Source: Tetraselmis striata
Lineage: Eukaryota > Chlorophyta > Chlorodendrophyceae > Chlorodendrales > Chlorodendraceae
NCBI GenBank assembly: GCA_006384855.1
Contig: VCJN01002805.1
Location: 1-64,000, forward strand
Direction of reading: 5' to 3'
Length of the DNA: 64,000 nt
Below the pieces are notes generated by a model that ran no database searches, was not told the DNA's origin, and saw nothing but the letters and a program-made list of their open reading frames with translations. The position numbers and the translations under genes were made by a program. Shown here in pieces: positions 24,851 through 31,854 of the stretch (within the stretch, counting starts at the first letter, position 1; every line of letters begins with the position of its first letter).

Positions 24851-25222
24851 AAAGACCCATACAAAACTAATATAGGCGTACCAGTATGACTTATTATAGC
24901 GATTATATGTGGCAAAATGTGTGGTGTTGTGGCGGATTCATACTTCTTCCGCAAGTTCCACTGTATAGATTGGGCATTTTTGTCTTCAAAGTTTCTAGAT
25001 CACCATACATATCTTAACTTACAACCCCACCGGGGCGCTCGGCACCCCTAGACCAGTCCTAGCTCTAGTGTCAAGGTCGGGCCGGTTGCACCCTCGGGCG
25101 CGAGCCGGTCAATGATGTAACATTGGCACCGCCTCAAAAAAATGGGAATCGCGCGCCGATCCCGTAAAGCGCGCTGTCCGTGACGACACCCCATACACCG
25201 CCAACAATGCACACGGCCCGCC
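24851..25222. other. Flank of the LTR retrotransposon
   Basis: No gene seen. Ends in the CCGCC target duplication at 25218-25222. Confidence 0.5.
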
Positions 25223-25579
25223 TGTAAGTACTCGTGGCAGTACTTAGTGAAACAGGGCTCTTACTCGTAGCGTTTGGCGAATTGAGTTGGTTGCAGAATG
25301 AAATCTCTTACAACATGCTGGTGGCACTGGATATTTATCCTCTAGCGGTCCGACTCGGCACTGCGGACAGGCAACTAGTAGCGCTATCCTGATGATTTAG
25401 GAGTTCTAGCGCGTACTGTATTTATGTTACAAGAAATATTACTGGCTTCTGGTTGTGGCCGTACCAGTAAATAATACGCGTGCTGAAATATCAGCAGTAC
25501 AACAGTACGATTACTTGGCCATAAAACGTCGCAGGTTTGTGGTGTAATATTAGGGTAGTCGCTAGGCGCAACCCTAACA
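25223..25579 (-). repeat. 3' LTR
   Basis: Left copy of the direct repeat, TGTAAGTACTCG to CAACCCTAACA on the plus strand. It is the 3' LTR because the element is transcribed on the minus strand. Confidence 0.95.
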
Positions 25580-25699
25580 TTCCCACCCCTCTGATAAATG
25601 ACGAACTGGAAAGTGTCTGTTCGCGTCGCCGAAGGCCTGGCCCAGATGTCGGTTGGCGGTGGAAGCGTGATATAGCAACCGCAACAGCAGCAGTAGGTG

Positions 25700-27862
25700 T
25701 CAACGCTCCGGGATGGACTCTGGAAAACGTGACGGGTGGCGCGCTCGCAGGTTGGCGTATTCCTTTGAGCGTAGCGTGTCTTGCAGATGTCGGCTCGTCC
25801 TCGCGAAATCGTGTAGCGCCTCGACACGTCGCAGCGCGCTATATGGTTCCCAGCTGTCATGACTTGAGTCGTAGTTCAGCCAACGCACCAGAAAGACGAG
25901 GCAGAGTCCTCGCTTGTACAGATCCTCGCGGCGCTCGATAGAGAAATCGAGCACGCGTTCAACGACGAACTCGTCGACAGGGGGCTCCACACTGGACGGT
26001 ATTGTATCGGGCTGTGCATCTGGGTTGACGCACTGGCGCAGTCGACTGATGTGAAACACATTGTAGCAGTCGAACGTTGGTGGCAGGCGCAGACGATACG
26101 CCTGGCTGGAGATCTTGGCTGTGACCGGGTAGGGGCCGATGTAGCGCTGTCGGAACTTGCGCGCCGGCTGGTTGCGTATGAGCAAGTGCTCCGTTGAGAG
26201 CCAGACTTTGTCTCCTTCTGCGAACTCAACAGGGCTGGTTTTGCGGTTGGCATAGACCTTTTGATATTCATCAGCAAGCTTCAGTTGCTCAGTAATCAAC
26301 TTGTGAATATCTTGAATATTTGCAACTGTGTTGCGTGCATCTTGGTTGGCAGTAGCAATCAGATCAGGTGGTGTCAGTGGCATCATGCCATAAATTGCCT
26401 CAAAAGGGGCATAATGTGTTGCTGAATGGACTGAATTGTTGTAAGAAAATTCAGCAAGAGCCAAATGAGTTAACCAAGAGTCATGTTGCTTGTGAACAAA
26501 CGCACGTAATATTTGCTCAATAGTTCTATGGGTGCGTTCAGTTTGACCGTCAGTTTGCGGGTGATAAGCGCTGGAAATATTTAGCTTAGTTTGCAGAGCT
26601 GTAAACAATGATTTCCAGAACACTGAAGTGAACCTGGGATCTCTGTCAGAGATGATACATCTGCTGAGACCATGGTGTCTGTAAATATTGTCCAAATATA
26701 ATCTGGCCAGCTGTGTCGCATCAATCTTAATATTGCATGGCACAAAATGTGACTGTTTGGTGAATGTATCAACAAACGTAGCAATAGCATCATAGCCATC
26801 CACCTCAGGTAAGTTGGTTATAAAATCCATTGAGATTATCTCCCAAGGCTTGGTTGCCTTGGGCAAGGGAAATAAAGAACCATGAGGCTTGGTGGTAGCT
26901 GCTTTGATTCTAACGCAAGTATCACAGTGTTTGCAGTAATGCTTGACTGTGGTATTCATGCGTGGCCGCCAAAACATACGCAGTATGTTGGCAAGAGTGC
27001 GGGTATGGTTGGGGTGTCCATTACCAACATGATACTCCTCAATGATGAGTTTTCTTAGTTCAGAATCATTGGGTATACAGACCTTATCTGCCATGTAGTA
27101 GAGACCATCAGTCTCATCTTGTCGCACACCGTTGGGGGTGCGTCCATGGCTGTAGGCAACATCAGTGATGTAGGCAGCTTTGATCTTGTTTATTAGCTTG
27201 CTGTCAATCTGCAAGGCGGACATTGCTGACAAATAGTCCTGCATTTGTTCAAGGTCAGCTTCGACCAGCTGGTTTTCATATTCAGTCAATGCATAATGCA
27301 AGTCAGGGCGGCGAGAGAGAGCATCAGCCTCATTGTCAGCGCCTTTGCGATATAATATCTGCAACACAGGCTCATTAGTCTGTGGGTTGACTGCCATGTA
27401 TGGTGAGATTTCATGTAACCATAGGGCATGGCGTCTGCCTAGTCCTTCCTGTGTAGGCAAATGCCTCAATGTGGCATGGTCAGTTATAACTGTAATACGG
27501 CGACTGCCTTCCAAGTAGCAGCGCCATTCTTTCAGAGCACATACCACACCCAAGAGCTCTTGGTCATAGGTGGGATAATTTGTTTGTGCAGCCTGCAATG
27601 TCTTTGCATAATAGCTGCAAGGGTGTAAGTGGCCATGAGCATTAGCCTGGAGCAGAACTGCACCCAAGGCATATTTGCTGGCGTCAGTAGCCACTACAAA
27701 CTCAGCATCTTTGCCGGTGACAGGGCTTGCCAGCACTGGGGACTGGCACAAGGCTTGCTTCAGTTTTACAAATGCAGCTTGGCATTCAACTGTCCAATCA
27801 AATATGTTATCCTTTCTTGTGAGGGCATATAACGGTGCTGCAATAGCAGAATAATTGCGCAC
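25700..27862 (-). CDS. Retrotransposon RNase H, integrase and chromodomain part of pol
   Basis: Open frame of 720 residues, the intact 3' part of pol. RNase H: D60 in VVATDASKYALG, E102, D128. Integrase zinc finger HHCC: H278, H283, C310, C313. Integrase catalytic triad D346 (SMDFIT), D406 (ISDRDPRF) and E442 (QTDGQTERTHR). The last 90 residues form a chromodomain (about 634-690, with LVRWLNYDSSHDSWEP), which in this family targets integration to particular chromatin. The frame begins inside the RT thumb/connection region because of an upstream frame change, so the first ATG is not a natural start. Host consequence: none expected beyond insertion. Confidence 0.93.
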   Translation of the reverse strand: MRNYSAIAAPLYALTRKDNIFDWTVECQAAFVKLKQALCQSPVLASPVTGKDAEFVVATDASKYALGAVLLQANAHGHLHPCSYYAKTLQAAQTNYPTYDQELLGVVCALKEWRCYLEGSRRITVITDHATLRHLPTQEGLGRRHALWLHEISPYMAVNPQTNEPVLQILYRKGADNEADALSRRPDLHYALTEYENQLVEADLEQMQDYLSAMSALQIDSKLINKIKAAYITDVAYSHGRTPNGVRQDETDGLYYMADKVCIPNDSELRKLIIEEYHVGNGHPNHTRTLANILRMFWRPRMNTTVKHYCKHCDTCVRIKAATTKPHGSLFPLPKATKPWEIISMDFITNLPEVDGYDAIATFVDTFTKQSHFVPCNIKIDATQLARLYLDNIYRHHGLSRCIISDRDPRFTSVFWKSLFTALQTKLNISSAYHPQTDGQTERTHRTIEQILRAFVHKQHDSWLTHLALAEFSYNNSVHSATHYAPFEAIYGMMPLTPPDLIATANQDARNTVANIQDIHKLITEQLKLADEYQKVYANRKTSPVEFAEGDKVWLSTEHLLIRNQPARKFRQRYIGPYPVTAKISSQAYRLRLPPTFDCYNVFHISRLRQCVNPDAQPDTIPSSVEPPVDEFVVERVLDFSIERREDLYKRGLCLVFLVRWLNYDSSHDSWEPYSALRRVEALHDFARTSRHLQDTLRSKEYANLRARHPSRFPESIPER

Positions 27863-28867
27863 ATAGCGTCGGTAAAAATTGCAGAAACCAAGATACGTTG
27901 GACATTCTGAACGTTCTTAGGCCTGGGCCAATCCTGAACAGCCTTGATTTTATTAGGCGAGGGTCTTCGGCCAGCGTGTGATACCATATGTCCAAGGTAT
28001 TCTAGTTCATTCTTGGCAAACCAGCATTTCTGTAATCGTAGTCTAATTAGACTCGAGCATAGTAAGAGCTGTGTCCAAATGTTGCAAATGTTCCTCAAGC
28101 GAGTTGCTAAAAATCAAGACATCATCCAGGTATACAAGTATAAAGGTATGCTTGTGTGGCTGGAGTATAGATGTCATCAGGCGTTGAAAAGAGGAGGGAG
28201 CACTGGTGAGTCCAAATGGCATTACTAGCCACTCGAATTGGCCATAGACAGTTCGGAACGCTGTCTTAGGAACATCAGGTGGATTAATCCGGAGTTGGTG
28301 ATAACCTAAGGCGAGATCAAGAGCTGAATAGACAGTAGCACCAGATAGCATATCAAGTAATGCATCAGCAGGTGGAACAGCGAACTCGACCTTTTTGGTG
28401 TACTTATTCAATTGACGGTAGTCAATGCACATGCGCAGACCGCCATTGGCCTTGCGGGCGAAGAGAACAGGAGCTGCATATGGAGAGAAGGACTCTTGTA
28501 TAAACTGTTTCTCAAGAAAAGAATTCAGTTGTGTTCTTAGTTCCTCTAATTCTGCAGGTGATAATCTGTATATTTTTCCTGCAGGAACTTGAGCATCAGG
28601 AACAAGAGGGATCTCATGATCAAGACCAGGGCGTAATTGTGGAAGGTTGTCAAGCGGAGAGCATATTGGTTTATGCTTTCGCAATAAGTTTCTGATCTGA
28701 GCGGTATAAGCTGCAGACTGGTCAGTGTCAATTGCATTTATCTCATCATCAATATCGAGCTCATCACTCTCTTTGGTGGCATTGTATTGTTTAACAATGG
28801 CGCAGAAATAAACTATGTCAGGATCATGCTTGGCAATTTCTCTGGCCATGGCATTAGCATGAACCAT
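27863..28867 (-). pseudogene. Retrotransposon reverse transcriptase, frameshifted
   Basis: The 274-residue frame 28867-28043 holds RT motifs: an ESFSPYAAPV block (about 125-134), RMCIDYRQLN (145-154), SALDLALGYHQ (181-191), MPFGLTSAP (216-224), and the catalytic YLDD at 246-249. It stops at 28043, where coding continues in another frame (ELEYLGHMVS) and shifts again near 27895 into the frame of the RNase H block. The two shifts leave RT unlinked from RNase H. Confidence 0.9.
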
Positions 28868-28908
28868 TCTGACATTAGCCTGGCGGGGCTCTGTTTGGCA
28901 TTGGACTT

Positions 28909-29796
28909 TTAGTCCTGTGGAAAATGTCTACCATCAGCAAGAATAACTCTTACTTTGTTTTGAAGTGGTGTAGTTGGTATTTTATTTTCTTTGACATACT
29001 TGGTGCTGGCAAAGTTCAAAGTAGCACCGCTGTCAACCAGTACGGAAGGTGTTATATTAAATTCAGCACATGTTGGGTGTAATAGCAATAAGTCATGATC
29101 AGACTTGCTGGTAACAAAACATTTTTCTGTCATCATACGTGACTGGTGGGACTTTGTGGCTTTTGGTTTATATTCCTTACCTTGCTGTTCAGCCAGCATG
29201 GTTTTGAGTTCCTCAGTGGTAACGACGTCATTAATTGCCTGGGCTGAACGTTCCTCAACAGTGTAGTCAGCCAGGTAGACATCAACATACCACTCAGTGG
29301 GTCCCATAGGTTCAGTATCAGTCGCTGAACTGGGTGTGTGAAACAGATATGTTCCAGGCGGGTAGCTATGAATTTTCTTATATTTTGAAAGCAGTGGTTT
29401 CCAGGATTGTCCTAATTGTGAGGACCATCTGGGCATAACAATAATACCTCTTGTGTCAAAAGGTGACTCTTGTCTTTGCATCTCAAAATGCTGCAAGATA
29501 GGCAGGGCTGTGTCATCATACACTGGATTGATGAACACAGTTTTACCTTTGATATTTTGTTGCAAAAATGGTTTTTCAGCACTGCAATAATCTGAACAGA
29601 CAGCATCATATGCTGAGGCACAGGCATCAAAAGTGACTGGACCATAGGCATAATTCAGTCTCTTGAATTCTGCTTGGTCAAACACAACAGAGTCAGTTGG
29701 ACATGCATTTGGTTTTGCATATTTGTCAATTTCAGTGTCATTCTTTTGATTATTGTTTTTGGTACGCATTCTGCGCACTCGAGATCTCTTTTGCAT
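28909..29796 (-). pseudogene. Retrotransposon Dam-like methyltransferase domain and protease
   Basis: Frame of 295 residues. Residues about 39-165 resemble the N6-adenine methyltransferase-like (Dam-like) domain of phages and of DIRS and algal retroelements: YGPVTFDACAS (51-61), a Cys/Tyr segment ending YCSAEKPFL, then VFINPVY at 87-93 in the place of the catalytic NPPY/DPPY, and a GIIVMPRW strand (117-124). Residues about 245-290 hold a retropepsin-like protease with the active site D255-S-G in VLVDSGATLNFAS. NPVY in place of NPPY may mean the methyltransferase activity is reduced or lost. The frame ends at 28909, with coding continuing in a shifted frame into RT. Confidence 0.8.
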
Positions 29797-30131
29797 GATA
29801 GTCAGTTTGGCATGCAGTTTAGCATGCGTCTATTTGTCTTTGACATTTTGTCGACATTTTCTCTGCACCCTGTCTCGTCCTCGATGTCGGCAACGAGGTG
29901 TGAATGAGCACAGGAACACCCATGAGCTTCATGCTCAGGTTGTGAGTCGGAGGGGTTCAGTGCCGCGGGAGCGCAATGCTCGACCATATCGACATCTGTA
30001 TCCTCGATCTCATGCAGGGGCTGAGCAGGCAGTTTAGCAGTGCATGCATGTTTGCATGGACTCGGCGACATGTCAGTGTCAATTGTCTCAATTACATTGA
30101 GAGGCACAGGTTGGCATGTCGCCCAACACCG

Positions 30132-31179
30132 TCATTTGTTTTTATGTAAGTCGATCTTGTCGACTTGCTTGGCTAGCTTGTTAGCTGCCACTTTGGCTTT
30201 GAACTGTTCTTTGTCATGTTCAGACGCATGGCGGCATTCATAAATTGAGTGGCCTTTTTTGCCGCATTTGGCGCACTCACCAGAGAAGCGACTCTTTTTT
30301 GGTTGACGACTGGGGAAGCTGCTGTGAGCAGCAGGACGACTTGGGGCAGAGCTGGTTGATGCTCCGTTGTTGCGTGACCACGGGTTTGTGGAGGTTGGCA
30401 TGTGATAACCTGAATACTCCTCGTAGCGACGCTTGTGTTTCTTGATATTGGCTTGCCTCCTTTGGGCAATCTCGACAGCGACGCGGTGCTCCTCGTCGAT
30501 AGCCGAGAGATGTCTGAAAAGTACTTCATGAGTCAAGACAACCTCGTTGTTGTGGTTAGCCATCCTTTGCACCTCGGCTCTCTCGTGCTTGGGAATCGCC
30601 TGCAAAATACGCTGCACTTGCAAGTACTCAGGCACAACGAAAGGTTCATGCAGCAAAGCAAATGCAGCTTGTAGCTTGCGCTGCAAGTCGACGCAGCAAG
30701 TAGCCATCTTGGGGTCGCTCGGCTTGATGCAGATGTTACGCGCATAGTCTCCGACAGTTGTCTGAATGCCGTTGGGGAAAGCGGCCTTGAAAAAAGCTTG
30801 TTTCCAATCTTGATAGTTTGACAAAGTGAGTCAGGACCTCGCAACCCATAACAATGTGAACTTGAAGCTCATGGCTGTTGAGTACAAGTTGGTGGGTGTG
30901 AGCCGCGATAGAATCGGTCTTGAACTGGCGACCGAGCCATGCCTCCGTCTCAGGAACCCAAAGCTTGTTGCGGTCGGAAATCTCCTTGTCGACATTCTCC
31001 AGAAAGGCCTTGACTGCTGGAAAGTCATGAACGTCGGCGAGCTTGTGAGAGATGTTCTGGGTTGGCGCCACAACGCGGGCTTCCAGCATCTTCTTCTCGA
31101 CAATTTGACGCATAGACTGCTCGGCGGGTGGACCACCGGGAGGGTAACCGGCTTGACGGGCGCTCCGGTGCGATGCCAT
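30132..31179 (-). pseudogene. Retrotransposon gag with CCHC knuckle, frameshifted
   Basis: Two abutting frames. The first (31179-30736) starts MASHRSARQAG and reads as the gag N-terminus to about 30830. The second (30824-30132) continues with SNYQDWKQAFFKAAFP, a helical capsid-like region, a basic Ser/Arg-rich linker, and a zinc knuckle CAKCGKKGHSIYEC near the C-terminus, typical of nucleocapsid. A one-base change near 30825 joins them. A programmed shift is possible, but the site (CACTTTGTCAAAC) is not a classic slippery sequence and lies mid-gag, so a mutation or read error is more likely. Confidence 0.85.
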
Positions 31180-31334: not shown

Positions 31335-31691
31335 TGTAAGTACTCGTGGCAGTACTTAGTGAAACAGGGCTCTTACTCGTAGCGTTTGGCGAATTGAGTT
31401 GGTTGCAGAATGTAATCTCTTACAACATGCTGGTGGCACTGGATATTTATCCTATAGCGGTCCGACTCGGCACCGCGGACAGGCAACTAGTAGCGCTATC
31501 CTGATGATTTAGGAGTTCTAGCGCGTACTGTATTTATGTTACAAGAAATATTACTGGCTTCTGGTTGTGGCCGTACCAGTAAATAATACGGGTGCTGAAA
31601 TATCAGCAGTACAACAGTATGATTACTTGGCCATAAAACGTCGCAGGTTTGTGGTGTAATATTAGGGTAGTCGCTAGGCGCAACCCTAACA
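31335..31691 (-). repeat. 5' LTR
   Basis: Right copy of the 357-bp repeat, TG to CA, followed by CCGCC at 31692-31696 that matches the left flank. It is the promoter LTR for minus-strand transcription. Confidence 0.95.
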
Positions 31692-31854
31692 CCGCCCGAC
31701 GCGACGTTGCACGGGGCTTGAGGGGAGATAGGTGCGACGGCGTGCGTGGCGGGCTGCTGAATGCTCGGCTAGCTATGTAGCAGCTCGCTGTGTCGGTGCG
31801 GCGGCCACTGTGCGGAAACGCATGTTTTCGAGTTTTTAAATGGCAGTCGGTCAG

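Follow-up and report, generated by a model that had tools for sequence, protein, structure and literature searches.

The window analyzed here, a stretch of 64,000 nucleotides from Tetraselmis striata (contig VCJN01002805.1, positions 1 to 64,000), contains on its minus strand a Ty3/gypsy retrotransposon in which gag and protease are separated by a domain resembling Dam methyltransferases. The domain is located in a minus-strand open reading frame (ORF) of 306 amino acids (28909-29829), in which GPVTFDACAS, YCSAEKPFL, VFINPVY and GIIVMPRW occur in this order, followed by the retropepsin motif LVDSG. An initial annotation, made from the letters of the sequence, had quoted these motifs ahead of a retropepsin, and all of them are found in this ORF. 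The frame it proposed, 28909 to 29796, is real and position 29796 is an ATG within the longer ORF; however, the annotation did not state that the frame lies on the minus strand, and the plus-strand translation is full of stop codons. All features described below are on the minus strand. The Dam-like (PF05869 / CAPAM-like) domain, delimited by profile and predicted fold, spans 29245..29712. Within it, the motif I region GPVTFDACAS (29614..29643) is the putative S-adenosylmethionine (SAM) binding strand and loop, and motif IV reads NPVY (29518..29529), which does not match the canonical [DNS]PP[YFW]. A basic stretch (KRSRVRRMRTKNNNQK, 29743..29790) lies ahead of the domain and is a possible nuclear signal or nucleic-acid contact.

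Residues 55-118 of the ORF match PF05869 (Dam) with an E value of 1.9e-5 and 24.9 bits. Since the curated cut-off is 28.1 bits, we call the domain Dam-like and do not regard it as a curated Dam member. The cut-off is passed by the relatives P0002, P0004 and L036, and at E <= 0.1 PF05869 matches 16 of the 17 retroelement domains that were aligned. The window ORF also matches phrog_111, annotated as DNA methyltransferase (E 2.1e-4), and the AlphaFold2 (AF2) model of the domain is a predicted methyltransferase fold (pLDDT 82, pTM 0.75). A reverse transcriptase (RT) stretch, used as negative control, gave an hhalign E value of 0.62. The search of the window ORF against PDB with phmmer yielded no match, and the A1 profile found only RNA helicase and StAR-related rows, with E values of 0.12 or worse. 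The core claim of the initial annotation, that a Ty3 element with a chromodomain carries a Dam-like domain after gag and ahead of the protease, is thus borne out by profile and predicted fold; neither a lack of methyltransferase matches nor an unrelated fold, the outcomes it had named as contradicting it, arose in the profile and structure searches.

The element is bounded by two long terminal repeats (LTRs) of 357 bp, each starting with TG and ending with CA, which were determined by local alignment (5' LTR 31335..31691, 3' LTR 25223..25579) and differ at 5 of 357 positions. They are flanked by the 5 bp repeat GGCGG, a target-site duplication (31692..31696 on the 5' side in element orientation, 25218..25222 on the 3' side), and a putative polypurine tract with one T in 13, assigned from the sequence, adjoins the 3' LTR (25580..25592). 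The gag region (30132..31179) encodes a CCHC zinc knuckle (zf-CCHC_3, E 6.1e-5, under its cut-off), and comparison with the gag of L043, a related copy, showed a frame change near 30,820. At the gag end a UGA stop codon is followed by CGG (30129..30134), a putative readthrough site; in related copies pol is in phase here. Downstream of the Dam-like domain the retropepsin starts with LVDSGATLNF (28909..29046; RVP_2 at residues 253-295 of the ORF, E 1.4e-4) and is truncated in the window copy compared to L043. The RT ORF follows at 28043..28927 (RVT_1, E 2.3e-25), and RNase H, integrase (H2C2 and rve, the latter under its cut-off), SH3_Tf2-1 and chromodomain are encoded at 25700..27916, with the chromodomain (PF00385, E 6.8e-8, 32.7 bits, over its cut-off) at the integrase C-terminus (about 25805-25969).

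Compared to L043, the window copy is broken: besides the gag frame change, a piece of the protease is missing and there are breaks in RT and RNase H. The spacer between gag and the ORF with the Dam-like domain has one base less (302 nt in the window copy, 303 nt in L043). The Pol order protease-RT-RNase H-integrase was found by Pfam in the pieces of the window and in P0003 (family B, see below), and in L043 it is present in one frame of 1534 amino acids. With its LTRs and target-site duplication, Pol order and chromodomain, the window element is best explained as a decayed member of a Ty3/gypsy chromovirus family with many copies. The chromovirus label rests on these element features; the tree used for the approximately unbiased (AU) tests below held no reference chromovirus RTs. 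Identity as a DIRS element was rejected, as retropepsin and DDE integrase are present according to the Pfam scan, which was made without a separate recombinase search of the frames.

The host assembly (224 Mb, 2903 contigs) was searched for related copies. It contains 63 matches to PF00504 (chlorophyll a/b-binding), and therefore the host looks photosynthetic, which lends partial support to the green-algal setting presumed by the initial annotation. The window ORF gave at least 133 match rows. Twelve rows of family A, the family of the window element, have an open frame of at least 1500 amino acids that is stop-free in the match (our own count of the match table). A sister family B with 56-57% identity is represented by five rows, two of them with a frame of 1526 amino acids. 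In L043 (family A, 1534 amino acids) and L044 (family B, 1526 amino acids, order by Pfam) a single frame runs from the gag stop through Dam-like domain, protease, RT, RNase H and integrase to the chromodomain. In four old family A copies (L050, L051, L053 and L056) Dam and RT differ from L043 by quite unequal amounts, which may reflect recombination between subfamilies or frame-shifted decay. C397 (L058) is an old A-like copy.

A sample independent of the Dam-like domain was obtained with the Ty3-type protease PF08284. The genome search listed 150 matches, many of them from families A and B, and six loci outside these families were fetched, picked for variety and mostly with long frames. All six have a Dam-like domain upstream of the protease. 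One of them, L065 (C1407, frame of 442 amino acids), was known beforehand to have an adjoining Dam match and is no independent test; the unbiased count is five of five, from three families, with three of the five belonging to family D. By family, L061 (family E) has HPPY as motif IV, L062, L063, L065 and L066 (family D) have NPPF, and L064 (the very divergent family F) has HPPW. L064 has no Pfam Dam match, yet it is matched by the A1 profile (hhalign E 2.4e-16 over 119 columns). The initial annotation had considered the placement between gag and protease uncommon; on the contrary, it looks standard in the host genome. The retropepsins of the four family D loci have DSA in place of the DSG of families A, B and E, and that of L064 has DNA.

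Relatives were also found outside the host genome. P0004 (1536 amino acids) and P0005 (1630 amino acids) are Ty3 polyproteins from other sources with the domain ahead of the protease. The alignment search retrieved 30 proteins at E <= 10, all but one with E values no higher than 5.2e-8, and by eye many of the 30 look like a second lineage with the order Dam, NUDIX, protease. Pfam detected Dam and NUDIX (PF00293, over its cut-off) in P0008 and in L036 of the host genome (G000 C230; 1480-2451, 2868-3293). A retropepsin follows the NUDIX domain in L036 (by eye), and in P0034 a protease match follows the NUDIX-like part. The alignments were built from domain fragments alone. For the NUDIX lineage the A2 profile took L036 and P0008-P0011; the 23 proteins P0012-P0034, NUDIX-like by eye and some of them truncated, were excluded from A2, and L040, with a frame-broken Dam, was excluded from the alignments.

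The conservation of the domain bears on the possibility that the resemblance to Dam is due to chance or that a single element recently captured a passenger. The single-sequence score below the Pfam cut-off and the empty phmmer search against PDB would fit such an origin, but we consider it very improbable: position and sequence of the domain are conserved across six families of the genome (A, B, D, E, F and L036), its divergence agrees with that of RT, and the fold model is fairly confident. Between families A and B identity amounts to 63% in the domain, 52% in the protease, 81% in RT and 35% in the 17 codons just before the domain; for the domain, nonsynonymous divergence (dN) is 0.34 and synonymous divergence (dS) is 2.3, near saturation. 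Across seven lineages the identity of Dam tracks that of RT-RNase H (Spearman 0.96, 21 non-independent pairs). In the tree of Dam as in that of RT, families B and E group together, separate from A; the RT tree does not resolve A and P0004. Holding all 17 Ty3 rows together was not rejected (AU p 0.382); the free tree has two changes, and a single change occurs in 2% of bootstrap trees. The tree therefore does not tell one acquisition from several. The domain is best read as a long-kept module of this Ty3 group, and in sequence it is close to the Dam of DIRS elements. Its presence in related elements of the host genome makes it look like a functional part that has been retained, and not like an accident.

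Dam-like domains are known from DIRS elements, as the initial annotation stated: one is described in DIRS-type tyrosine-recombinase retrotransposons (PMC3783388), and DIRS-like elements of the host genome carry one as well. Two of these, L045 and L046 (G000 C1802, C103), have RT-RNase H-Dam and a frame that by eye resembles a tyrosine recombinase; another group (L039, L041, L042) has NAPF at the same place. The PF05869-type domain is common to DIRS and Ty3 elements, which resemble each other along the length of the domain: comparison with the DIRS-like L014 gave an hhalign E value of 4.9e-13 with 31% identity over 131 columns and a shared C-terminal GPTxW. Unlike in DIRS, the Ty3 domain precedes the protease and is part of an LTR element that also encodes a DDE integrase and a chromodomain. 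The free-standing PF05869-type Dam of a Klebsiella phage (OM687892.1 ORF041) shares the layout YGPF-x-V-D...C...NPPYD (hhalign E 2e-8, 84 columns); by eye it is without the HFE and GPTxW of the retroelement group. The match to DIRS is longer than the one to the phage and includes GPTxW; a common retroelement Dam lineage has probably moved between DIRS and Ty3 elements. Three near-identical frames of 193 amino acids with a phage-type Dam (NPPF) are also present in the host genome (L021, L023, L025).

Motif IV bears on the likely catalytic activity of the domain. Among the 17 domains NPP[YF] is present in eight, NPVY in family A and P0007, HPPY or HPPW in three, CPPF in one and NAP[YF] in three. 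NPPY or NPPF is found in families B and D, P0002, P0004 and L036. The initial annotation had set NPPY against NPVY; both states occur among the relatives, together with NPPF, HPPY, HPPW, CPPF and NAPY/F. The last residue of the motif is aromatic in all 17 domains. Invariant in 17 of 17 are also a Cys and the P and W of a PxW after the next strand; the Pro of a GP before motif I is likewise invariant, and the acidic residue of motif I and another Pro are nearly so. In the genome the NPVY pattern was found at 135 sites and NPPY at 36, with none in reversed controls; both are counts of pattern matches, a minority of which were inspected singly. Seven of the 36 NPPY sites are related to family B (five match-table rows, L057 and L060), and one NPPY-pattern match, C1489 (L059), is a decayed B-like fragment. 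The initial annotation was right about NPVY in the window; its suggestion of a leftover fits less well, as NPVY is the usual state of family A, occurs also in P0007 from another source, and has sisters with NPPY or NPPF. With 135 sites against 36, NPVY is the usual state of a successful family and not damage in a single copy. A single clade of A and P0007 was not rejected (AU p 0.114); NPVY may therefore be ancestral or have arisen twice.

In M.TaqI, Asn, the backbone of the first Pro and Tyr of motif IV contact the flipped base. NPVY retains all three and would thus keep these base contacts; HPPY, HPPW and CPPF change the Asn, and activity is less likely there. Catalysis in the window family is, judging from the motif, less sure than in the families with NPPY and NPPF. 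Just 8 of 17 domains are canonical and four begin the motif with H or C, so that the catalytic motif is less conserved than the fold. It is conceivable, if at somewhat long odds, that the methyltransferase fold has lost catalysis or is drifting and is retained because it serves a structural purpose or binds nucleic acid, for instance by holding cDNA or RNA or acting as a spacer in Gag-Pol. This would agree with the variable first residue of motif IV (N, H, C), with the replacement of NPPY by NPVY in the window family and the greater number of NPVY sites, and with Cys and PxW being invariant while motif IV varies. The basic stretch ahead of the domain fits as well: it has 7-11 Lys/Arg per 20 residues in the ten sequences examined, and no 20-residue window in the A, B and P0004 proteins is richer (P0005 has richer ones further upstream of the domain). 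Such a dead fold is at odds with the retention of NPPY or NPPF in B, D, P0002, P0004 and L036, with the nearly invariant acidic residue of motif I and with the M.TaqI contacts kept by NPVY.

The substrate might also be RNA and not DNA. The best solved structure for the domain in two programs is CAPAM/PCIF1, the cap-specific N6-adenosine methyltransferase, with 16% identity and only about 155 of the 491 residues of the solved chain aligned. Capped genomic mRNA (a modification like N6,2'-O-dimethyladenosine, m6Am) or an internal site could be methylated, affecting stability, translation or packaging; we regard this, which is compatible with an active enzyme in the particle, as possible but rather doubtful. 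PF12237 (PCIF1_WW) matches seven of the 17 domains at E <= 0.1 (best 0.0011), with the window domain unmatched at that limit, and the A2 profile aligns NPPY...HFE...P..W with human PCIF1, weakly (E 0.28). However, PF05869 matches are stronger and found in more members, and in a viral library, where folds related to the domain were found, phage N-6-adenine methyltransferases ranked above giant-virus PCIF1-like proteins (from 1.4e-2). The PDB rows shown include no phage PF05869-type Dam by title, which may be the sole reason that CAPAM leads. The NUDIX fusion of one lineage would suit an RNA substrate, as the NUDIX fold includes decapping enzymes, but NUDIX is a broad family.

The gag-pol junction bears on how the domain would be made. 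In families A and B the Dam frame sits behind an in-frame UGA-CGG after gag. This gag end was found in 15 loci, namely 12 family A loci holding the stretch (of 22 loci given) and L044, L057 and L060 of family B, and in L043, L044 and L057 the frame after the UGA continues in phase with gag. Some readthrough sites of plant viruses are built in this way, with UGA-CGG or UGA-CUA followed by a stem some 8 nt further on. UGA-CGG with some predicted downstream structure points to possible stop-codon readthrough in an LTR retrotransposon.

We put forward that the domain is an N6-adenine methyltransferase module of Gag-Pol that, inside the particle, acts on nucleic acid of the element itself and is active at least in the NPPY and NPPF families, and we consider the chances for and against this to be about even. 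Position, predicted fold, conservation between families and UGA-CGG in two families were found here; readthrough, packaging, SAM binding, catalysis, substrate and benefit are our extension of them. In such a scheme the ribosome would occasionally read through the gag UGA, giving low, enzyme-like amounts of a Gag-Dam-protease-RT-RNase H-integrase-chromodomain fusion that would be packed into the particle. If so, Dam would be made only in the Gag-Pol fusion. The protease would then free the domain, which could methylate adenine N6 of either new cDNA before integration, the possibility raised by the initial annotation, or packaged RNA; as CAPAM, the solved structure nearest to the domain, methylates RNA caps, RNA is as worth considering as DNA.

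Several observations weigh against this proposal. The Pfam Dam score of the window is under the curated cut-off, and PF05869 fails to match the whole P0005 protein at E <= 1 and L064 at 0.1. Canonical NPP[YF] is limited to 8 of the 17 domains, with H as first residue in three and C in one. The dN/dS ratio of the domain was also determined for nine further copies of family A, several of which are dead, frame-broken or with few changes; at 0.32-1.09 it shows no clear purifying signal. The predicted RNA structure after the UGA is modest (L043 z -2.4, with 5 of 200 shuffles as good; L044 z -1.5, 16 of 200), and the spacing is unequal, as the main stem of L043 begins 8 nt after the UGA and pairing in L044 begins at 1 nt with a second helix at 9 nt. 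The family A copies L004, L005, L010 and L011 are altered just after UGA-CGG. Since the family D loci have a stop and then an ATG ahead of the Dam frame, readthrough is not general.

Other DNA methyltransferases in mobile elements have been described. KnitGypsy-Dnmt3, a Gypsy element of a charophyte alga, and SymbioDIRS-Dnmt3 carry one in Pol, and for DIRS elements the authors think that the cDNA is methylated; these enzymes are C5-cytosine methyltransferases, structurally unrelated to Dam (PMC5890265). A ParB-methyltransferase accessory gene with a predicted N4-methylcytosine or N6-methyladenine product is likewise located in an algal mobile element; unlike here, it is a separate gene of a DNA transposon and includes a ParB-like domain (PMC12477816). 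The passages of PMC8885841 consulted do not mention Dam in retroelements. The open-access literature searched gave no account of Ty3/gypsy elements with Dam; Repbase and subscription papers lie outside this search. Dam in DIRS and C5-methyltransferases in Gypsy and DIRS elements are the kinds already known.

The Dam-like domain of DIRS elements was recognized about two decades ago and, to our knowledge, has no tested function. N6-methyladenine (6mA) is reportedly common in green algae, and with NPPY, NPPF, NPVY, HPPY, HPPW, CPPF, NAPY and NAPF a set of natural motif variants is available in a photosynthetic host. At its boldest, and we think this unlikely, the domain would belong to an N6-adenine methyltransferase lineage shared by DIRS and Ty3 elements, with CAPAM as nearest among solved structures, and would be an enzyme that algal Ty3 chromoviruses cannot replicate without and that methylates their own RNA or cDNA in the particle; the NUDIX fusion of one lineage could remove caps or clear N6-methyl-dATP, forming a modify-and-sanitise pair. 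The same kind of domain, kept in several Ty3 families and located elsewhere in Pol, points to a wider role of adenine methylation, or of nucleic-acid binding by a SAM fold, in the replication of retroelements.
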